This document shows positions 1-5,474 of a DNA stretch of 5,474 nt, in pieces (positions within the stretch are counted from its first letter, which is position 1; each line of letters starts with the position of its first letter). The translations under genes were made by a program, and so were the position numbers. The notes below the pieces were generated by a model. The model searched no databases, was not told the origin of the DNA, and worked only from the letters and a program-made list of their open reading frames with translations. The stretch is from Anaerolineae bacterium (GTDB lineage: Bacteria; Chloroflexota; Anaerolineae; B4-G1), in the NCBI GenBank assembly GCA_030612185.1, contig JAUWOI010000330.1, forward strand, positions 1 to 5,474, read 5' to 3'.

Positions 1-191
1 ATTTGCCGGTGTAACCTTTGTAAGGGAACATTTGTCTGCTCCAGATCCTCTATTGTGTCGTTGGGTCGCTGTATGACGATGATCGTGTTGCGCGGTGCGT
101 GTTCCGTTCACGCAATACGTTTCACGTCTTATGTCTGCCTGTGCAGTTGTCAAACTACCCTGCGTATGATACAACAATATCGGAGGTAACT
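1..191. other. Gene-free left edge
   Basis: I see no convincing gene, RNA gene or terminator here. The stretch holds a short perfect inverted repeat (TGCGTG at 96-101 and CACGCA at 109-114, 7-nt loop) with no T-tract after it, a weak promoter candidate at 147-175, and the Shine-Dalgarno sequence GGAGGT at 182-187 that belongs to the gene starting at 192. Frames that start further upstream, such as ATG at 99, have no ribosome binding site and their extra residues look non-coding. Any transcript of the leftward operon that reads past 370 would continue into this stretch, because no rho-independent terminator is visible. Confidence 0.5.
147..175 (+). promoter_or_regulatory. Candidate sigma-70 promoter for the small gene at 192
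   Basis: TTGTCA at 147-152 (5 of 6 to the -35 consensus) is followed after 17 bp by TACAAC at 170-175 (4 of 6 to the -10 consensus). Transcription would start near 182, leaving almost no leader before the Shine-Dalgarno at 182-187, which makes the assignment doubtful. An overlapping TATGAT at 165-170 is a better -10 box but has no -35 box at the right distance. Confidence 0.3.
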
Positions 192-482
192 ATGCCACAG
201 GTGGCTCGTCCATTGTCTCAGCGGATCTCGCCAGCCGGTGTCGAGGCTGAGCGCGCTTTCCCTTGGCTGCGGTCGCTTGCCGTTGAACAGCGCGCCCAGT
301 TCTTTGCCGAGTTGTTCCTGGCTCTGGGGCAGGCCCTGCGTCAGCACGACTGGCACATCGTCGAGGATCTCATCTCCCGCTGGCAGGCCACGGTTGAGGT
401 GCTGGCGGTTCCTGCACCTGTATCGCCCCACTGGGGCACATCGCCGCGCACTCCGGTTCCCCGCCGCACAGATCGCACTTGA
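192..482 (+). CDS. Small hypothetical protein, probably 3'-truncated antitoxin-like remnant
   Basis: A 96-residue frame begins at ATG 192, placed by the Shine-Dalgarno GGAGGT at 182-187 about 5 nt upstream. Residues 20-72 look like a real soluble helical protein, rich in Glu, Gln, Ala and Leu, with the segment DWHIVEDLISRWQATVEVLA at 53-72. That segment resembles the end region of small antitoxin-like proteins of Gram-positive and Chloroflexi-type bacteria, where a Trp-x-Ala-Thr-x-Glu motif is followed by an acidic Asp-Pro-Glu stretch. This comparison is from memory and no family is certain. From residue 73 (about position 408) the composition changes to Pro, Arg, Thr and Ser, and the frame is then simply antisense to the conserved end of the polyferredoxin gene, which it overlaps by 113 bp. 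I infer that the original 3' end was lost by recombination and that the last 24 residues or so are accidental. No toxin partner is visible. Confidence 0.5.
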   Translation: MPQVARPLSQRISPAGVEAERAFPWLRSLAVEQRAQFFAELFLALGQALRQHDWHIVEDLISRWQATVEVLAVPAPVSPHWGTSPRTPVPRRTDRT

Positions 483-807
483 GGGACACACCTCGTTCCT
501 CGTCAAGGAAAATCGTTTCGTAGGGGCACGCCTCCACGCAGTCGCCGCAGCCGATACATTCCTCCACATCCACCACCCAGGCCCCGGTGTGCTCATTGAG
601 TGTGATCGCTCCCACCGGGCAAGCGGCAGCGCAAGGTGCGTCCTCGCACTGGCGGCAGACGGTGGGGGCAAAGGGGCCTTCGTCGCTCTGGGCCACGATG
701 GTGATGCGCGCCCGTTCCGGCCATACTGCCCCCTCGTGGTGAAAGGAGCAGAAATTCTCGCAGATGCGACACCCGGTGCATTTTTCCGCGTGGATCTCTA
801 AGTACAC
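370..807 (-). CDS. Four-cluster 4Fe-4S polyferredoxin, electron partner of the AOR
   Basis: This 145-residue soluble protein carries 16 cysteines in the four-group pattern of DmsB/HycB/NrfC-type electron-transfer subunits: C10-C13-C16-C20, C51-C54-C59-C63, C84-C87-C90-C94 and C111-C114-C120-C124. This predicts four [4Fe-4S] clusters. No signal peptide or membrane segment is seen, so it should work in the cytoplasm. Proteins of this type (AorA of the Aromatoleum AOR, BamC of class II benzoyl-CoA reductase) wire tungsten AOR-family subunits to ferredoxin or other carriers, and the AOR gene lies two genes upstream in the same operon. The start is GTG at 807-805, with Shine-Dalgarno GGAGG at 817-813 and a 5-nt spacer. 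It lies 19 nt after the dihydropyrimidinase stop. The family core ends at about residue 130 (position 418). The last 15 residues are Pro-rich and overlap the convergent small gene, so this tail may have been acquired at a recombination junction. The role is well supported; the exact physiological electron acceptor is inferred. Confidence 0.93.
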   Translation of the reverse strand: MYLEIHAEKCTGCRICENFCSFHHEGAVWPERARITIVAQSDEGPFAPTVCRQCEDAPCAAACPVGAITLNEHTGAWVVDVEECIGCGDCVEACPYETIFLDEERGVSLKCDLCGGEPECAAMCPSGAIQVQEPPAPQPWPASGR

Positions 808-826
808 GTTCGCCTCCGCCCTTGTG

Positions 827-2236
827 CTAACTGCTGACTACTGACTGCTTTCGAGACACGAAGCGTCCCCATCCCGGCTGGCCCACGAACTCCCCGTCGC
901 GCACGATGATCTGCCCCCGGCTGAGCACGTCGCGGGGCCAACCCTGGACGTGCATCCCCTCGTAGGGCGACCAGCCCACCCGCTCGTGAAGTGTTCGCCC
1001 TGCCTGGATGGTCACCCAGCGTTCCGGGTCGAAGATCACCAGGTCGGCGTCGAAGCCGGGCGCGATCTGTCCCTTGCGGCGCAGGCCAAAGATGCGGGCG
1101 GGGTTGGTGCAACAGACCTCGACCCAGCGCTCCAATGTCATCCAATGACGCCGGCCGAAGTGGTGAGCCAGGCTCAGGCGGGCTTCGATGGAGGGGATGC
1201 CGCCGGGGATGGTGGTGAAATCGGCGTGGTCGCTCTTTTCGGCAGCGGTGAAGGGGCAGTGATCGGTCGCCAGTACGTCCAGGTCCTCGAAGGCCAGCCC
1301 GCCCCACAGCGCCTCGTTGTCCTCCTCCGTCCGCAGCGGCGGCGAGCAGACCAGCCGTTCCCCGCCAGGCAGGTCGAGCGCCATCCCGTTCAGTAACAGG
1401 TACTGGGGGCAAGTCTCGCCGTAGACGTCTTCCCCACGCGCGCGGGCGGCCTGGATGCGTAACATACTTTCCTCGCACGAGACGTGGACGACGTAGAGTG
1501 GACTCCCGGCCAGTGCGGCGAAGTCAATGGCGTGGCTCACCGCCTCCGCTTCCTGGCGCGGTGGGCGGGTCAGCGCGTGGTATATGGGAGTGGTGTCGCC
1601 CCGGGCCACCGCCTGGGCGCGTAGCGTCTCACAGACGGGGCCGTTTTCGCAGTGGATGATGGGCAGGCCGCCGGCGGCCGCGATGCCCTGCATCACGCGG
1701 TAGAGTTGCGCGTCGTCCAGCCGGAAGCCCTCGTAGGCCAGGTAGAGTTTGAAACTGGGCACGCCCGCCGCTACCATTTCCGCCAGCGTGTGGGGCGACT
1801 TTTCATAGTCGCCATGGGCGGCGTGCCAGGTGGAGATCGTCATATGCAGGCCGTAGTCCACCGCCACGTGGCCGTCGGCCTCGGCGCACCGCTTTTCCAG
1901 CGCCTCCAGCAGCGGTTCCCCCGGTTCCGGTTCGACGAAGTCAATCACCGTCGTCGTACCGCCCAAGGCCGCCGCGACGGTACCGCTGGTGAAATCGTCG
2001 GCACTGACGTAGTCCCCCACCGGCATTTGCAGGTGGACGTGGGGGTCTATCCCGCCGGGGATGACGTAGCAGCCCGTGGCGTCGAGTTCGACCGCGCCAC
2101 GTGGCTCTAGTTCCTCGCCCATGGTGTCCTGAGACTGTTGAAGGAGCGCGACGATGCGCTCCCCGATGATGCCCACGTTGGCGGGGAAGACGCTGGCAGG
2201 GGTGATGAGCGTGCCATTGCGGATCACTACGTCCAT
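827..2236 (-). CDS. hydA: Dihydropyrimidinase / hydantoinase (cyclic amidohydrolase)
   Basis: This 469-residue cytoplasmic enzyme of the amidohydrolase superfamily has the usual length for dihydropyrimidinases (EC 3.5.2.2), which hydrolytically open 5,6-dihydrouracil, dihydrothymine or hydantoin rings to N-carbamoyl amino acids. All binuclear zinc ligands are visible: H66 and H68 in the DPHVH motif, the carbamylated lysine K163 in SFKLYLAY, H195 in IIHCENG, H251 in VVHVS and D325 in ATDHCPF. SPPLR at 298-302 and the C-terminal SPYEGMHVQGWP (423-434) also match this subfamily rather than allantoinase or dihydroorotase. ATG at 2236 lies inside the end of the AOR gene (10-nt overlap, no strong Shine-Dalgarno), which implies translational coupling. 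The last seven residues (463-469, KQSVVSS) are encoded by a short heptad repeat and look like an accidental tail after the family's normal GRFV end. No beta-ureidopropionase or dihydropyrimidine dehydrogenase lies in the window, so the substrate may not be uracil-derived; hydantoins or other cyclic imides are possible. Confidence 0.93.
   Translation of the reverse strand: MDVVIRNGTLITPASVFPANVGIIGERIVALLQQSQDTMGEELEPRGAVELDATGCYVIPGGIDPHVHLQMPVGDYVSADDFTSGTVAAALGGTTTVIDFVEPEPGEPLLEALEKRCAEADGHVAVDYGLHMTISTWHAAHGDYEKSPHTLAEMVAAGVPSFKLYLAYEGFRLDDAQLYRVMQGIAAAGGLPIIHCENGPVCETLRAQAVARGDTTPIYHALTRPPRQEAEAVSHAIDFAALAGSPLYVVHVSCEESMLRIQAARARGEDVYGETCPQYLLLNGMALDLPGGERLVCSPPLRTEEDNEALWGGLAFEDLDVLATDHCPFTAAEKSDHADFTTIPGGIPSIEARLSLAHHFGRRHWMTLERWVEVCCTNPARIFGLRRKGQIAPGFDADLVIFDPERWVTIQAGRTLHERVGWSPYEGMHVQGWPRDVLSRGQIIVRDGEFVGQPGWGRFVSRKQSVVSS
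831..851. repeat. Degenerate heptad repeat (CTRCTGA)
   Basis: Three consecutive 7-bp units read CTGCTGA (831-837), CTACTGA (838-844) and CTGCTTT (845-851) on the plus strand, the last one degenerate. The array sits exactly at the 3' end of the dihydropyrimidinase gene and supplies its last seven codons. Short tandem heptads of this kind occur between genes in some filamentous cyanobacteria and Chloroflexota; that parallel is from memory. With barely three units it could also be chance. Confidence 0.45.
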
Positions 2237-4101
2237 TTGTCCAACCCCAAGCGCTCCAATGTCTCCGGTGTAGGGACGCCGTTTTTATCCCAGCCCCGCA
2301 GGTGGTAGTACCGGTCCAGCATTGCCTCTAGGTCGCGCAGACGGCCAACGTGCACTGGTTCCGGCGAGGAATGTATCTCCCCCGTCGCTTCGTCGCGGTC
2401 GAAGGTGTGCACCTCCAGCGGTTCGGTGGTGAAGCGGGAGGGCAGGTGGTCGTCGGCGCGGGAGAGCCCCAACCGCGCGTTGTACAGCCGTTCCAGGTTG
2501 ACGATGCGCTCACCTGCTGTCAACAGTTCCTCGCCGCTCACCTCCCGCCCCCATAGCGCGCTCAAGCCCCTGGCCAGGTCCTCCGGGTAGATGGCGTAGG
2601 TCTCGGCGGTGGTGAACTTGCACACGCCCAGCGCGTCGGAGAGAGCGCAGTAGTGCTCGCTGAGGACCACCAGGTCAGGCTTATAGATCTCGTCGTCCGT
2701 CTCCATAAGCGCGGGGATGATCTCCGACGGGAAGAAACGTCTGGCGGCGTCCAGATTCCCCGCCAGGTCTATCGTCGGGAGGGCGTAGAGGTGGTCGGCC
2801 CCCCGGTTGGAGGTGGCGTGGCCCAGACCGAACCCCTTGGCGATGCGCGGCTCCTGGCGGGGGAGTTCCATTCCCTTGACGTGCATTGCGTAGCGCGACG
2901 CGTCTCCACCGATGGCCTCCGCTGCACGGCGGACCCCCTCCGCCAGCAGGTCGCCGAGGCCACGCCGCTGGGCGATGTGCTTGATGAGACCCAGGAGCGT
3001 GTCTGCGTCACCCCACACCAGCGAGAAATCTGGGTTGTTGAGAAGGCCACGTTGGTGACATTCCATCGCAAAGGCGATAGTGACGCCGGTGGATATAGTA
3101 TCCAGCCCCAGGTCATTGCACAACCGGTTGGCGTGGATGATAACCTCGGGGTCGTTAATCCAGCACATTGGCCCCAGGGCGTCGAGCGACTCGTACTCTG
3201 GGCCGTCCAAAGCGCCAGCGTGGGGACCGCTTTTGCCGCGGGTGACGCGGCCGCAAGCGATGGGGCAGGCGAAGCAACCCTTGGTCTTGCGCGTGTGGCG
3301 GGCGATGGCTTGGGCGTCCACCTGATCTGCCCAGGGCACCTGGCCCAGTTGGTGGTTGCGGGCTGGCAGGTCTCCGGAGAGGTTCTTGATGGCGACCAGG
3401 CTGACGGTGCCCCAGTCGCGCAGGCCGATGACGTTGGGATGGTCGCGCACCTGTTTGGATGCGCGGCGGGCCAGTGCGCGGAACTCCGCCGGGAGATCGA
3501 GGGGCCTGTGCCCGCGCACGACGATGGCCTTGAGATTCTTGCTGCCCATCACCGCGCCGCCGCCGCAGCGGGCCGCCGCCCGCCCTCCGTCGCTGATGAT
3601 GGCGGCAAAGCGAACGTAGTGTTCCCCTGCCGGCCCGATGCAAGCCACGCGGGCACCGCCGGTCGCCAGGGCATCGTGGGTGGCCCGGGTGCCCAGTCCC
3701 CAGAGGTGGTCGGCGGACCGGATGACGACACCAGCCGGTGTCACTTCCAGATAGATGGGCTGTTCGGCGCGGCCAGTGACGACGAGTGCGTCGTACCCGG
3801 CGCGGCGCAGGGCTGCCCCAAAGAAGCCGCCAGCGTTGGCGTAGCCATAGATGGACGTGAGGGGGGAGTGGAAGGTGACGTGGTAGCGGGCTCCGGCAGG
3901 CCACGGAGTGCCGGTCAGCGGCCCGACGGCAAAGATGAGAGGGGTGTCGGGTACGAGTGGGTCGGCAGGGTCGGCCAGGTGGCGGGAGAGGAGCGCGGCC
4001 CCCAGCCCCCGCCCGCCTATGAAGCGGGCTGTTAGATCAGCATCCGGGGTCTGGAGACGGGCAGTGCTGGTGGAGAGGTCAATCCAGGCAATAGTTCCCA
4101 T
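2227..4101 (-). CDS. aor: Aldehyde:ferredoxin oxidoreductase family tungsten/molybdenum enzyme
   Basis: This 624-residue protein has the full length of the AOR family, whose members carry a bis-pyranopterin tungsten (or molybdenum) cofactor and one [4Fe-4S] cluster and couple aldehyde oxidation, or related two-electron chemistry, to low-potential carriers. Diagnostic features in order are FIGGRGLGA (27-35) in the N-terminal pterin-binding domain, the family signature GGAVMGSKNLKAI (181-193), the cluster ligands C276, C279 and C283 in GCFACPIACGR with the fourth at C494, the GPEYES segment (300-305), and the pterin-contact motifs NDLGLD (329-334) and DALGVC (489-494). ATSNRGADHL (429-438) corresponds to the usual ATS-x-RGADHL. 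No signal peptide is present. ATG at 4101 has AGGTGA at 4110-4105 upstream and follows the regulator stop by 11 nt. The stop overlaps the dihydropyrimidinase start, and the electron-transfer subunit is the last gene of the operon. The AOR family is diverse (AOR, FOR, GOR, BamB, and many uncharacterised groups), so the substrate is open. Linkage to ring-opening hydrolases favours a step in N-heterocycle or derived-aldehyde metabolism; this is inference. Confidence 0.93.
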   Translation of the reverse strand: MGTIAWIDLSTSTARLQTPDADLTARFIGGRGLGAALLSRHLADPADPLVPDTPLIFAVGPLTGTPWPAGARYHVTFHSPLTSIYGYANAGGFFGAALRRAGYDALVVTGRAEQPIYLEVTPAGVVIRSADHLWGLGTRATHDALATGGARVACIGPAGEHYVRFAAIISDGGRAAARCGGGAVMGSKNLKAIVVRGHRPLDLPAEFRALARRASKQVRDHPNVIGLRDWGTVSLVAIKNLSGDLPARNHQLGQVPWADQVDAQAIARHTRKTKGCFACPIACGRVTRGKSGPHAGALDGPEYESLDALGPMCWINDPEVIIHANRLCNDLGLDTISTGVTIAFAMECHQRGLLNNPDFSLVWGDADTLLGLIKHIAQRRGLGDLLAEGVRRAAEAIGGDASRYAMHVKGMELPRQEPRIAKGFGLGHATSNRGADHLYALPTIDLAGNLDAARRFFPSEIIPALMETDDEIYKPDLVVLSEHYCALSDALGVCKFTTAETYAIYPEDLARGLSALWGREVSGEELLTAGERIVNLERLYNARLGLSRADDHLPSRFTTEPLEVHTFDRDEATGEIHSSPEPVHVGRLRDLEAMLDRYYHLRGWDKNGVPTPETLERLGLDKWT

Positions 4102-4112
4102 TGATCACCTCA

Positions 4113-4652
4113 TCAGAAGACGAAAGGCGTAATTACGGAGATGAAGCGCAGGGGTTCATCTCCTTTGGCAGCAAGACGACGAAGCAGGGGGCCTTCAAAG
4201 TAGACGCTGTCGCCGGGGTCAAGTGTGTAGACCTCTTCGCCTAACTGTATCTCGAGTTGACCCTGCAATACATAGATAAACTCTTCGGTGTATTGGCGCA
4301 ATGACATTGCAATATTGTCATCCCCTGGCTCCAATTGGGCCATGAGGGCTTCCATCTTGCGATCTAAATCGGGTGTCAGTAACTCGTAGGCCAGGTTAGA
4401 GTCCGGCAACGTCAACTTCAGTCGTTCGTTACGGCGCACGACTGGGCTCTTGGCATCGTGCTCGGCCAAGAAGTGGAAAATGGGTGCATCCAACGCCGCG
4501 CTGATCTTCCGCAGCGATTTGATAGAGGGACTGGTCAGATCGCGCTCCACCTGACTCAGGAAACTGGCGGTGAGACCAACCTGCTCTGCCAATTCGCGCA
4601 AACTCAGGTTCAATTCCTGCCGTCGCTTCTTTATGCGATGCCCCAATTGCAT
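4113..4652 (-). CDS. XRE-family regulator with C-terminal cupin domain
   Basis: This 179-residue cytoplasmic DNA-binding protein has an N-terminal XRE helix-turn-helix at about 3-62 (LSLRELAEQVGLTASFLSQV at 17-36 is the typical helix-turn-helix, followed by SPSIKSLRKISAAL) and a single cupin_2 domain at about 100-179 (EEFIYVLQGQLEI, then YTLDPGDSVYF). Such regulators usually sense a small metabolite through the cupin and control nearby catabolic or transport genes. Here the usual cupin histidines are absent: the first motif reads RQYTEEF and the second reads GPLLRRL where relatives normally have a Pro-His-Arg. Metal-independent ligand binding is therefore likely. I chose ATG at 4652 because the strong AGGAGG at 4666-4661 lies 8 nt upstream of it; a longer frame from GTG 4673 would add seven residues and contain that ribosome binding site. 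It is the first gene of the AOR operon and is divergent from the amidohydrolase, so it probably regulates both directions and itself. Activator or repressor action cannot be decided. Confidence 0.9.
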   Translation of the reverse strand: MQLGHRIKKRRQELNLSLRELAEQVGLTASFLSQVERDLTSPSIKSLRKISAALDAPIFHFLAEHDAKSPVVRRNERLKLTLPDSNLAYELLTPDLDRKMEALMAQLEPGDDNIAMSLRQYTEEFIYVLQGQLEIQLGEEVYTLDPGDSVYFEGPLLRRLAAKGDEPLRFISVITPFVF

Positions 4653-4660
4653 GTGTAGCG

Positions 4661-4666
4661 CCTCCT
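4661..4666 (-). promoter_or_regulatory. Shine-Dalgarno deciding the regulator start
   Basis: AGGAGG on the minus strand lies 8 nt before ATG 4652. It fixes the regulator start at 4652 and argues against the upstream in-frame GTG at 4673, which has no comparable site. Confidence 0.85.
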
Positions 4667-4719
4667 GTGTCACTGTGCCAGGATCTTCTTAGAGTGCAGG
4701 GGTAGTTTGCTCTATGAGA

Positions 4720-4749
4720 ATTATACCACAAGTCGCGACCGGTTGTCAA
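4720..4749 (-). promoter_or_regulatory. Sigma-70 promoter of the regulator-AOR-hydantoinase-ferredoxin operon
   Basis: Read on the minus strand, a perfect TTGACA (4749-4744) is followed after 18 bp by a perfect TATAAT (4725-4720). Transcription should begin near 4713, giving a leader of about 60 nt to the regulator ATG at 4652. No other promoter-like element was found ahead of the three downstream genes, which supports a single transcript. The near-consensus boxes imply a strong promoter that would need repression to be controlled. Confidence 0.85.
4732..4739. promoter_or_regulatory. Candidate operator palindrome inside the leftward promoter
   Basis: GTCGCGAC is a perfect 8-bp palindrome lying between the -10 and -35 boxes of the leftward promoter, and it overlaps a second palindrome ACCGGT (4738-4743). 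A protein bound here would block RNA polymerase. Autoregulation by the adjacent XRE-cupin protein is a natural guess, but the palindrome is short enough to arise by chance. Confidence 0.3.
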
Positions 4750-4783
4750 CTATAACTTCACGATATTAACTAATGCTTGACAA
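4743..4783. repeat. Inverted repeat formed by the two divergent -35 regions
   Basis: TTGTCAA (4743-4749) and TTGACAA (4777-4783) are perfect inverted copies separated by 27 bp, so the two promoters face away from each other with mirror-image -35 elements. The spacer is AT-rich and holds a direct repeat AACTA (4748-4752 and 4768-4772), its copies 20 bp apart or about two helical turns. This geometry suits a shared regulator acting on both promoters, although the symmetry is partly explained by the -35 consensus itself. Confidence 0.55.
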
Positions 4784-4805
4784 ATCGCCTGCCGTGTGTT
4801 ATACT
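4777..4805 (+). promoter_or_regulatory. Sigma-70 promoter of the amidohydrolase gene
   Basis: A perfect TTGACA (4777-4782) is followed after an optimal 17-bp spacer by TATACT (4800-4805, 5 of 6 to consensus). Transcription should begin near 4812, about 237 nt before the GTG start of the amidohydrolase. The long leader is unusual for a promoter this strong and suggests post-initiation control. Confidence 0.85.
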
Positions 4806-4842
4806 GGTTCAAAAGTAAAGGCCTGACAAGGATACTGCTCTT

Positions 4843-4920
4843 CTCCCGCTGAATCGCCAGGTACTGTGGATGGGCGTGTGGGGTCTGGCGATTCCACGGG
4901 AGCGGGGTACAACTCGCCCG
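4843..4920 (+). promoter_or_regulatory. Structured 5' leader element, possible pseudoknotted riboswitch-like RNA
   Basis: A 16-bp hairpin is visible: CTCCCG (4843-4848) pairs with CGGGAG (4897-4902) and, beyond a 2x2 internal loop, GAATCGCCAG (4851-4860) pairs perfectly with CTGGCGATTC (4885-4894). The 24-nt G-rich apical loop (4861-4884) contains TGGGCG (4871-4876), which can pair with CGCCCG (4915-4920) just downstream of the stem, giving a pseudoknot of five Watson-Crick pairs and one wobble. It lies in the leader of a metabolic gene. I do not recognise the conserved core of TPP, FMN, cobalamin, SAM, purine, glycine, fluoride, guanidine or c-di-GMP riboswitches. The hairpin is certain as sequence; regulatory function is inference, and it could instead be a protein-binding DNA dyad. 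Confidence 0.5.
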
Positions 4921-4930
4921 AAGTTCTGAA

Positions 4931-5044
4931 CTACACCTCCGGTTTATTGCAGAGATTAATAAGAAATCCAAGAAATCTAGGGTGTGTAGTGTAGTACAAC
5001 GTGAGCAGATGTCAGTACCATTTGTCCCCATGCAGATGGGAGGG
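4931..5044 (+). promoter_or_regulatory. Candidate translation switch around the amidohydrolase Shine-Dalgarno
   Basis: The Shine-Dalgarno GGGAGGG (5038-5044) precedes GTG 5049 by 4 nt. Three competing pairings are visible. CCTCC (4936-4940) is complementary to GGAGG (5039-5043). CTACAC (4931-4936) can instead pair with GTGTAG (4984-4989), holding the adjacent anti-Shine-Dalgarno in another helix. CCATTTG (5018-5024) pairs with CAGATGG (5033-5039, one G-U pair), a hairpin that reaches into the Shine-Dalgarno and displays CCCC in its loop. The arrangement would suit an expression platform, but each helix is short. Confidence 0.35.
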
Positions 5045-5048
5045 CGGC

Positions 5049-5474
5049 GTGGCTTTACTCGTTCGACGAGCGACTTATCTCCTCCGTGATGCCCGGCGCA
5101 TCGGGCGCGATGTGGACCTGCTCGTTCAGGGGAATCGCATCGTGGCTATTGGCGCCGACCTCCCTGTTCCGCCTGATGCCGAGACGATAGATGCCCAGGG
5201 TTGTGCTGTCATCCCCGGCCTGGTCAATGCTCACACTCATCTCTACCAGAATTTCCTCAAAGGCGCAGGGGCAGGGCTACGTCTTGTCCCCTGGTGCAAC
5301 GCAGTGATTTTCCCAATGGTGGACGTCATCCTGCAGGAGCAGCATGCAGGCAACCAGCGCCTGGCCTACCTGTGGTCGGTACTGGGGGCACTGGAGATGA
5401 TCCGGGCGGGCACGACCTGCTGCCAGGACCTGGACGTGACACCGTATCTCTCGCTGACAGGGGTTCTGGAGGCG
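5049..5474 (+). CDS. ATZ/TRZ-like amidohydrolase, N-terminal part (runs off window)
   Basis: The first 142 residues of a metal-dependent amidohydrolase are present; relatives are about 430-480 residues, so roughly two-thirds lies beyond the window. Residues 1-57 form the N-terminal beta-sandwich with the usual LLVQGNRIVAIG (24-35) and GCAVIPGLVNAHTHLYQ (51-67). H62 and H64 in the last segment are the first two metal ligands. The following FLKG (69-72), the PW at 81-82 and IRAGTTC (118-124) fit the family of cytosine/guanine-type deaminases, 8-oxoguanine deaminase, SsnA and AtzB/TrzN-like chlorohydrolases, which remove amino or halide groups from N-heterocycles. The exact substrate cannot be set because the catalytic second half is missing. 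GTG 5049 was chosen because GGGAGGG at 5038-5044 precedes it and the protein then begins where the family does; in-frame GTG 5001 and TTG 5022 would put the Shine-Dalgarno inside the gene. It is transcribed divergently from the AOR operon and probably shares its regulator. Confidence 0.88.
   Translation, partial: MALLVRRATYLLRDARRIGRDVDLLVQGNRIVAIGADLPVPPDAETIDAQGCAVIPGLVNAHTHLYQNFLKGAGAGLRLVPWCNAVIFPMVDVILQEQHAGNQRLAYLWSVLGALEMIRAGTTCCQDLDVTPYLSLTGVLEA

Follow-up and report, generated by a model that had tools for sequence, protein, structure and literature searches.

A tungsten-type oxidoreductase clade of the AOR/WOR family in recurrent gene clusters probably devoted to nitrogen heterocycles

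Introduction

Why does a tungsten-type enzyme of a family known mainly for aldehyde oxidation share a locus with a hydantoinase and an ATZ/TRZ-type amidohydrolase? The question is raised by a stretch of 5,474 nucleotides from an Anaerolineae bacterium (contig JAUWOI010000330.1 of GenBank assembly GCA_030612185.1), which is called the window below at its full length. The gene under study, AOR1 (2227..4101, minus strand), encodes an AOR/WOR-family tungsten (or molybdenum) oxidoreductase of 624 aa. It is accompanied on the same strand by HYD (827..2236), a cyclic amidohydrolase of the dihydropyrimidinase / D-hydantoinase type (469 aa), and by FD (370..807), a polyferredoxin of 145 aa. An earlier note on this DNA had placed an AOR, a polyferredoxin, a hydantoinase and an ATZ/TRZ amidohydrolase in one regulated locus, and their positions and family names were confirmed with the gene map, Pfam and NCBIfam. 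It had offered two readings of the AOR: oxidation of an aldehyde released after ring opening, or reduction of an unsaturated ring in the manner of the benzoyl-CoA reductase BamB.

More than 4,000 members of the WOR family are known, grouped in 92 clades, of which only five include a member with a defined physiological role (PMC13328260, in excerpt). In the excerpted accounts nearly all of this chemistry is the oxidation of aldehydes; BamB, which reduces a ring, and WOR5/ASOR, which has a sulfonate activity, are the exceptions (PMC12096430; PMC13328260). Among the matches listed in searches of one open-licence library, no description was found of an AOR associated with hydantoinase, xanthine dehydrogenase (XDH) or purine-degradation clusters.

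The neighbourhood of AOR1 occurs widely in both bacteria and archaea, and a catalytic residue of these AORs has undergone a change that is fixed; both features are real. The cluster around AOR1 very probably serves a nitrogen heterocycle. What the enzyme does there is proposed more cautiously: judged from sequence and gene context, the AOR1 system may perform ring hydroxylase or dehydroxylase chemistry in purine-type catabolism, with chances that fall slightly short of even. Hydroxylation or dehydroxylation at a ring carbon is a third option beyond the two readings given above, and it fits best.

The AOR1 clade and its neighbourhood

AOR1 matches the Pfam models AFOR_N (238.6 bits, cut-off 29.8) and AFOR_C (415.5 bits, cut-off 27), which places it in the AOR/WOR family. 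HYD scores 458.5 bits against TIGR02033 (NCBIfam cut-off 393.25), as expected of a dihydropyrimidinase, and its best match in the PDB is the D-hydantoinase 1yny (E 1.1e-115). The protein closest to AOR1 is 94% identical, and the named relatives among its closest matches (77-82%) come from metagenome-assembled genomes of Chloroflexota/Anaerolineae. Three close relatives, P0002, P0008 and P0009 (81-84% identical), are encoded on contigs of 57-82 kb. A structure model of AOR1 built from 16 sequences reached a mean predicted local distance difference test score (pLDDT) of 61 and was not used.

In a tree of 160 AOR sequences (166 before identical ones were dropped), the window protein falls inside an AOR1 clade of 78 sequences (support 1.00). 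Its sister (support 0.84) is a second clade, AOR2, with 31 sequences (support 0.95), and the joint clade reaches a support of 0.983 once three archaeal sequences are added. All five solved references in the tree, named aldehyde oxidoreductases by their depositors, lie outside both clades. The placement suggested in the earlier note, against AOR, FOR, GOR and BamB clades, was made against these five references and did not refute the note; FOR, WOR5, GAPOR/GOR, YdhV and BamB were not part of the tree. In pairwise comparison AOR1 scores 427.6 bits with PfAOR, 207.8 bits with the large subunit of WOR5 and 179.4 bits with BamB.

Relatives of the locus were collected in a scan of one genome per species, with loci picked by the peptide patterns NRGADHLY and DALG[VI]CKF; the best 80 of the 194 relatives found in this way were kept (loci are numbered L001 and so on). 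Neighbouring genes were compared by tblastn and clustering. Each neighbour family was assigned by BLAST from one to four seed sequences, and only genes up to 8 kb away count as neighbours. Open reading frames (ORFs) were taken with a longest-ORF script, and their start positions are approximate. The neighbourhood recurs in Chloroflexota, Spirochaetota, Halanaerobiales, Atribacterota, Bipolaricaulota/Acetothermia and Bacillota and in the archaeal Thermoproteota. The window arrangement is therefore more than chance, since the same arrangement is found in related genomes, and the absence from relatives that would have spoken against the earlier note is not the case.

Also present in the clusters of relatives are ABC or energy-coupling factor (ECF) transporters and three kinds of enzyme: an SsnA-like amidohydrolase, a carbamoyltransferase and a reductase that is either PreA/UacX-like or of the F420 type. 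In Chloroflexota, the order AOR1-(HYD)-FD-AOR2-SsnA-like amidohydrolase-PreA-like reductase is seen in L001, L002, L004, L006 and L007, with HYD in L001, L006 and L007; a ThiS/MoaD-like gene follows AOR2 in L002, L003, L004 and L006. The Spirochaetota locus L041 has an SsnA-like amidohydrolase, a PreA-like reductase, XDH subunits, a carbamoyltransferase, a second amidohydrolase and AOR1, in this order. In two Thermoproteota loci (L077, L078) the run PreA-like-AOR2-FD is kept, and the cluster also includes HYD and AOR1, an amidohydrolase gene and transporter genes of ECF-like type. A ring reductase near AOR1 is PreA/UacX-like in 28/77 loci and F420 luciferase-like in 5/77. In a sample of 120 genomes from the class to which Longilinea belongs, AOR1 was found in 10 (E <= 1e-160), which marks it as an accessory trait there.

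Are these neighbours particular to AOR1? For comparison, 40 further AOR regions were hand-picked (not at random) from the listed matches of 30 genomes; 5 of the 40 proved to be AOR1-clade loci again and were counted as AOR1. With the comparison limited to loci with at least 3 kb of flank on each side, 49 AOR1 loci and 37 other AORs remained. At least one gene for an amidohydrolase, PreA-like reductase, HYD or carbamoyltransferase lies near AOR1 in 36/49 loci, compared with 4/37 for the other AORs. Taken singly, the AOR1 loci have an amidohydrolase in 34, a PreA-like gene in 23, HYD in 12, a carbamoyltransferase (OTC) in 14 and XDH in 16; the corresponding numbers for the other AORs are 3, 0, 1, 0 and 2. 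Some of the few other AORs with such neighbours share a locus with AOR1 (L007, L049).

Active site

Residues are numbered here after PfAOR. The excerpted PMC12096430 describes Thr243, Glu313, Tyr427 and His448 as common to most of the AORs that it lists, with His for Tyr in one enzyme, and the same four second-shell residues are named in PMC13328260. Tyr427 has been proposed to position the aldehyde through a hydrogen bond to its carbonyl, and BamB is described as having a cysteine metal ligand and no such second-shell residues (PMC12096430, in excerpt). In the window protein, Thr232, Glu304 and His437 correspond to Thr243, Glu313 and His448, and Gln416 replaces Tyr427; the cluster cysteines are 276/279/283/494. 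The four cysteines of the [4Fe-4S] cluster (PfAOR 288, 291, 295, 494) and Thr243, Glu313 and His448 are each retained in 78/78 AOR1 and 31/31 AOR2 sequences.

Position 427 is Gln in every aligned member of both clades (78/78 AOR1 and 31/31 AOR2, or 109/109) and also in the three archaeal AORs of locus L159. Among 51 other AORs it is Tyr in 26, His in 18, Gln in 1 and other residues in 6. The selecting peptide patterns cover approximately PfAOR 443-450 and 489-496, including His448, and conservation inside them is partly selected because the patterns chose the loci; position 427 lies outside them, and the AOR2 sequences were chosen without any pattern. A change of Tyr452 to Leu/Phe in AOR1 and AOR2 was considered as a further argument and dropped, as Tyr is found there in only 12/51 other AORs.

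In terms of the definitions in the excerpted PMC12096430, AOR1 departs from the second shell of an aldehyde-oxidizing AOR sensu stricto at Tyr427 and, with three of the four residues retained, does not show the loss that marks BamB. The AORs sensu stricto (AORAa 8c0z, 9mqx) share with AOR1 the family, the cluster cysteines and Glu313/His448/Thr243, and their small subunits resemble FD; AOR1 differs in its Gln for Tyr427, its separate clade and its N-heterocycle neighbourhood. In bovine xanthine oxidase, the active site has Gln767 near the metal oxo group, and Glu1261. The combination of kept acid/base residues at the metal site and a changed aldehyde-holding residue favours hydroxylation-type chemistry on a different substrate over BamB-type reduction.

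Exchange between AOR2 and xanthine dehydrogenase

The redox part of these clusters comes in two forms. Around AOR1, AOR2 is present in 28 loci and an XDH-family molybdenum subunit in 25, and none of these 53 loci has both. Neither was found in 10/63 scorable AOR1 loci; 14/77 have flanks too short to count as 'neither'. On the AOR1 tree the AOR2/XDH state requires at least 4 switches, compared with an average of 17.9 for shuffled labels, so the switches are few, yet more than one event. Fisher's test of the mutual exclusion gives p 1.7e-6 with the kinship of the loci ignored. Two AOR1 loci added later, L173 and L175, have XDH and amidohydrolase matches and Gln427; no match to AOR2 was found in either. 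In several operons AOR1 stands directly with XDH subunits. The XDH family (XdhA/PucD type) takes the place of AOR2 around AOR1 although it is an unrelated protein family, with separate Mo, FAD and 2Fe-2S subunits instead of a W/4Fe-4S subunit. The claim that an AOR with a polyferredoxin occupies the redox position of molybdenum hydroxylases has thus gained support from a conserved and mutually exclusive pattern.

The window belongs to the AOR2 form. Its left end, at 1..31 on the minus strand, encodes MFPYKGYTGK (bases 31-2) behind GGAG before the reading frame leaves the window. The AOR2 protein of L007 opens with this very peptide, and that of L001 agrees with it at 9/10 positions. Over nine residues, two or fewer mismatches were found in 11/5994 ORFs of the loci, all of them AOR2-clade proteins. 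By this match to relatives, the ten codons are the start of a second AOR, AOR2.

FD goes with AOR2. In the set of 49 loci, FD was found with AOR2 in 16 and with XDH in 0/16; 7 AOR2 loci have no separate FD match, and 2 FD matches occur without AOR2. In L036 a single 840-aa ORF has an FD-like start that runs into AOR2, a fusion in line with FD serving AOR2. AOR1 and AOR2 have diverged together (distance correlation r 0.90, matched in 0/999 permutations, 29 loci). Their frames overlap by 3-72 nt in L036, L045, L051, L065, L068, L069 and L072, an extent that is uncertain because it rests on longest-ORF starts.

FD matches Fer4 families (Pfam), and its 16 Cys in four motifs correspond to four [4Fe-4S] sites, in agreement with the four-cluster ferredoxin of the earlier note. 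It is homologous to the solved small subunits of WOR5 (6x1o_B, E 2.7e-31) and AORAa (8c0z_C, E 1e-30) and to 9mqx_E (E 1.4e-26), and more distantly to BamC (4z3w_E, E 9.8e-14). With its four motifs and this homology to WOR/AOR small subunits, FD is a WorS-type polyferredoxin. The WOR5/ASOR system of Pyrococcus (6x1o, 6x6u) supplies the small subunit nearest to FD, while its large subunit is only distantly similar to AOR1. As a side observation, FD of L001 is split over two frames (L001:4004-4436, pieces of 83% and 68%), through either an assembly frameshift or decay of the gene.

Relation to the reductive purine pathway

Which pathway could such a cluster serve? A reductive urate pathway with XdhD, YgfK/UacX, SsnA, HyuA and YgeW has been shown biochemically (PMC12507026, in excerpt, as for the rest of this paragraph). 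In E. coli, XdhD turns urate into yanthine (2,8-dioxopurine) by reduction. The first ring is reduced and opened by YgfK (UacX in C. difficile) and SsnA, the second is opened by HyuA, and YgeW/UacY, YgeY and YgeX complete the route. Chloroflexota are said to use an F420-type reductase in place of YgfK/UacX, and the reduction of yanthine is suggested to be possibly thermodynamically unfavourable. The words 'aldehyde', 'tungsten' and 'AOR' do not occur in the main text of PMC12507026.

Around AOR1 the E. coli / C. difficile urate cluster has counterparts in a hydantoinase, an SsnA-sister amidohydrolase, a PreA/UacX-like or F420-type reductase and a carbamoyltransferase. The AOR1 clusters differ in that the XdhD slot is held by AOR1 with AOR2 and FD, or by AOR1 with an XDH-family enzyme, and in that the tested amidohydrolases of AOR1 clusters score below the SsnA cut-offs except in L159. 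In a tree of 75 sequences, 33 SsnA-like proteins are sister to 12 true SsnA proteins (joint support 0.93). SsnA is the best NCBIfam match for proteins of this SsnA-like kind (264 and 256 bits, under the cut-off), and the carbamoyltransferase is OTC/YgeW-like. The genes tested from L001, L036 and L041 reach 252-256 bits against TIGR03314 (cut-off 455.5) and 260-270 bits against PRK07203 (cut-off 444). In L037, PreA-like and GltD-like parts are joined in a fusion, an architecture similar to that of YgfK.

The two cluster types also meet more directly. Longilinea arvoryzae has an XdhD-like/SsnA cluster and an AOR1 cluster side by side in one genome. Its SsnA locus (L151) contains SsnA (456.2 bits, cut-off 455.5), an XdhD-like protein of about 1000 aa (506 bits, cut-off 1101.9) and an F420 luciferase-like protein; its AOR1 locus (L025) contains AOR1-FD-AOR2 with paralogues of SsnA and of the F420 protein, the latter 47% alike to that of L151. 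The archaeal locus L159, a 20-kb stretch from the genome of L078, holds two FDs, three AOR2-clade AORs, a PreA-like gene and an ABC transporter, together with an allantoinase/hydantoinase-type cyclic amidohydrolase and a divergent true SsnA, which at 554.8 and 531.4 bits passes both cut-offs (531.4 vs 455.5). No match to an XDH-type gene, XdhD included, was found in these 20 kb. Across 30 AOR1 genomes, XdhD (TIGR03313) passes its cut-off in 1, and homologues of about 1000 aa at roughly half the cut-off occur in many. A further SsnA locus (L156, genome G015) has XDH-type, carbamoyltransferase, regulator and PreA-like genes and no AOR match, and is possibly a mixed form between the two cluster types.

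From these comparisons a route can be sketched. On this view the window shows a section of a gene cluster for the anaerobic breakdown of a purine-type nitrogen heterocycle. Together with AOR2 and FD, or together with an XDH-family enzyme, AOR1 would use water to hydroxylate a ring carbon adjacent to nitrogen, or would dehydroxylate it reductively (N=C-H + H2O <-> N-C=O + 2e-), and FD would carry low-potential electrons to or from ferredoxin. The AOR1 system would take the slot of XdhD/XDH in a reductive purine pathway of the E. coli type. The ring would next be reduced by the PreA/UacX-like or F420 enzyme, the SsnA-like enzyme would open one ring and the hydantoinase the other, and the carbamoyltransferase may recover carbamoyl phosphate and so save energy. 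A more specific version is offered only as a possibility, on the doubtful side: AOR1, AOR2 and FD might form a tungsten azaheterocycle hydroxylase or dehydroxylase that replaced molybdenum XdhD/XDH several times, with Gln427 and Glu313 handling the ring C-H/C=O.

Several observations weigh against this proposal. The Fisher p value overstates the evidence, since the loci are related and the tree needs only 4 switches. The XDH label is a family-level one: the swap-partner proteins of L041 and L038 have XdhA/PucD models as their best matches and stay below the cut-offs (482.6 vs 780 and 511.8 vs 783.65 bits), outside XdhA/PucD proper. Three Anaerolineae loci (L038, L046, L052) have AOR1 and XDH with no amidohydrolase within 8 kb, and sugar-catabolic genes (FGGY kinase, DeoC/LacD aldolase, PfkB) in some AOR1 operons could yield an aldehyde. 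SsnA passes its cut-off in 23/30 AOR1 genomes, and AOR matches were found at 1/12 of those places inspected (L159). The diaminopropionate ammonia-lyase YgeX passes its cut-off in 3/30 genomes, so that most of them are without the final steps known for this pathway. Within the 5,474-nt window itself, neither an SsnA-like gene nor a ring reductase was seen. In view of the numbers for SsnA and YgeX, the substrate may be some other ring of purine-like or pterin-like type, or the route may finish differently; in many genomes the AOR1 cluster may act on a heterocycle other than urate or catalyse another reaction. A role of AOR1 simply as urate dehydroxylase was set aside in view of SsnA being over its cut-off in 23/30 genomes.

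Competing explanations

Could the AORs instead oxidize a downstream aldehyde to the acid, giving reduced ferredoxin? Such an aldehyde might be malonate semialdehyde, formed from beta-alanine once a dihydropyrimidine has been opened, or a small aldolase product derived from a nucleoside sugar. Family precedent points this way: in the excerpted accounts, the characterized WOR clades other than BamB are variations on aldehyde oxidation (PMC12096430), and WOR5/ASOR adds a sulfonate activity to aldehyde-type chemistry (PMC13328260). So do the retained Thr243/Glu313/His448 and the sugar genes just described, which in some AOR1 operons are joined by ADP-ribosylglycohydrolase-like genes. Plain aldehyde oxidation nevertheless becomes less likely because the residue proposed to hold the aldehyde is Gln in 109/109 sequences. 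The sugar genes are present in a minority of the mapped loci, AOR1 is found directly with XDH subunits, and AOR2 swaps with an XDH-family enzyme, although the XDH family also includes aldehyde oxidoreductases. Overall, this explanation is considered unlikely, if worth keeping in mind.

A second alternative accepts the cluster as real and changes the substrate to a pyrimidine nucleoside or to a pterin-, flavin- or B6-like vitamin. The dihydropyrimidinase assignment of HYD agrees with this, as does PreA, which belongs to the family of a dihydropyrimidine dehydrogenase subunit. The transporters are also suggestive: two S-components of L015 match the riboflavin-type family PF07155 (34.5 and 38 bits, cut-off 26.7), an S-component-like gene of L077 reaches 30.1 against a folate-family model (below its cut-off of 60), and the ABC transporter of L159 is closest to a putative B6 transporter, below the cut-offs (527.4 vs 670 and 178 vs 465). 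Methenyl-tetrahydromethanopterin (methenyl-H4MPT) cyclohydrolase homologues lie near AOR1 in 11/77 loci, and a formyltransferase (FTR) homologue in L072. What makes a non-purine substrate quite unlikely is that many clusters have two or three cyclic amidohydrolases, one of them an SsnA sister, which suits a bicyclic purine-type ring, and that L159 combines AORs of this kind with a true SsnA.

A third alternative is the BamB-like reaction of the earlier note, in which the AOR reduces an aromatic N-heterocycle and the hydantoinase opens the reduced ring. Known pathways require reduction before ring opening, and yanthine reduction is possibly unfavourable (both from the excerpted PMC12507026); a low-potential tungsten enzyme could help with it. 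The class II benzoyl-CoA reductase BamB-BamC (4z3w) is also an AOR/WOR-family enzyme with a polyferredoxin subunit, one to which FD is similar. Reduction of the BamB type is nonetheless less likely because AOR1 keeps the second-shell residues, three of the four, that BamB, with its cysteine ligand, is described as lacking (PMC12096430, in excerpt), and because many loci already have a separate ring reductase. AOR1 is in addition far nearer to PfAOR than to BamB in bit score. The reaction is therefore regarded as very unlikely here.

Finally, a loose neighbourhood, with AOR1 merely co-regulated with N-heterocycle genes and charged with an unrelated duty, is highly improbable: 2-21 AOR-family genes per genome (30 genomes, among the matches listed) mean that some will lie near anything, and the 10 loci with neither AOR2 nor XDH point the same way, but the other AORs of the same genomes are mostly without these neighbours, the AOR1 frame overlaps HYD by 10 nt and AOR2 in seven loci, and the association also holds in archaea.

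Layout of the window and neighbouring genes

The hydroxylase or dehydroxylase reading was built on AOR1 and its recurrent partners; the remaining features of the window are described here. Transcription on the minus strand runs through REG, AOR1, HYD and FD. REG (4113..4673, minus strand), the first gene, encodes a regulator with an XRE-type helix-turn-helix and a cupin domain (HTH_3 and Cupin_2) that is PuuR-like, scoring 65.1 bits against the PuuR model PRK09943 (cut-off 211) and thus falling outside PuuR proper. It ends 11 nt before AOR1. The AOR1 and HYD frames share 10 nt (2227-2236), as had been noted earlier, and because of this overlap and the 11-nt gap the four genes are read as one operon. 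REG homologues adjoin AOR1 in L015, L025 and L027 and lie within about 4 kb of it in L010 and L047.

REG is divergent from AMIb (5001..5474, plus strand), and the region between them (4674..5000) is presumed to be the site of both promoters. AMIb, which starts at 5001 or 5049, is the N-terminal part of an ATZ/TRZ-type amidohydrolase (Amidohydro_1); only 142-158 aa are visible in the window, with an HxH motif. This fragment falls outside the SsnA-like clade, in an AMIb clade of 11 members including the window (support 1.00), where L004 and L071 are closest. The ten other members are all from loci with AOR2, as is the window (L071 is the same locus as L126). The best curated-family score of AMIb from L004 is 309 bits, with a cut-off of 617, as for a generic ATZ/TRZ-type enzyme, and nothing was seen of a link to triazines beyond that family name. 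In L015 and L025 the layout is as in the window, including the divergent intergenic region, and AMIb belongs to a divergent gene run that includes EcfT-like and ECF-ATPase-like genes. In L015 this run also has one S-component gene (PF07155, 38 bits), and the EcfT gene scores 110.5 bits against CbiQ; ECF genes outside L015 were named by eye or from weak matches. ECF transporter genes are predicted to lie past position 5474, behind AMIb; on the other side, the proposed reading predicts an SsnA-like gene and a PreA-like or F420-type reductase gene after AOR2.

At the other end, FD and AOR2 are spaced by 338 nt that hold a small ORF on the opposite strand (192..482, plus strand), which converges on FD. 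Its relatives are mostly 101-126 aa, two of them matching PF19760; the window copy is shorter and is without about 24 residues that P0122 and P0123 carry before the tail overlapping FD. The tail, antisense to FD, is common to the window, P0122 and P0123. An assembly artefact between FD and AOR2 was considered and found unlikely, as P0122 and P0123 show this overlap with FD too; the FD-AOR2 junction is therefore probably real. The small ORF itself probably belongs outside the system.

Other genes were observed around AOR1 in relatives. Some of the ADP-ribosylglycohydrolase-like, FGGY kinase, DeoC/LacD aldolase, alcohol-dehydrogenase-like and ABC transporter genes occur in L031, L032, L036, L041 and L075, a mix that looks as if a whole nucleoside-like compound were dismantled. 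The methenyl-H4MPT cyclohydrolase homologues are those of L026, L028, L030, L045, L062, L069 and L070-L074; the L028 protein exceeds its NCBIfam cut-off, and the FTR homologue of L072 matches PF01913. These neighbours possibly link ring breakdown to one-carbon carriers. An MtmB-like methylamine methyltransferase homologue (L020:6130-7533; PF05369, 266.6 bits) also lies near AOR1, with cluster members in L027 and L078. UbiD-type decarboxylase candidates, labelled by eye, are found near AOR1 in L010, L013, L016, L048, L059, L060, L066 and L067, and with AOR2 in 0/6 scored loci. They could belong to an imidazole-carboxylate branch of purine fermentation. Two AORs just outside the AOR1 and AOR2 clades (L118:8832-10745 and L026:1962-3881) have Ser and Gln, respectively, at position 427. 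The former has UbiD-like, amidohydrolase and XDH genes nearby and the latter a carbamoyltransferase and the cyclohydrolase (MCH). They are possibly early branches.

Conclusions

Within a family whose chemistry has mostly been that of aldehydes, the AOR1/AOR2 clade pair is a concrete, testable candidate for further non-aldehyde WOR chemistry. It offers a single active-site residue to mutate and, in XDH, a clear swap partner for comparison. If the proposal is true, a new non-aldehyde chemistry would join those of BamB and WOR5/ASOR, convergent with xanthine dehydrogenase. The clusters suggest that a tungsten version of the anaerobic routes for purine-type rings described in 2025 may exist and extend to the archaea.

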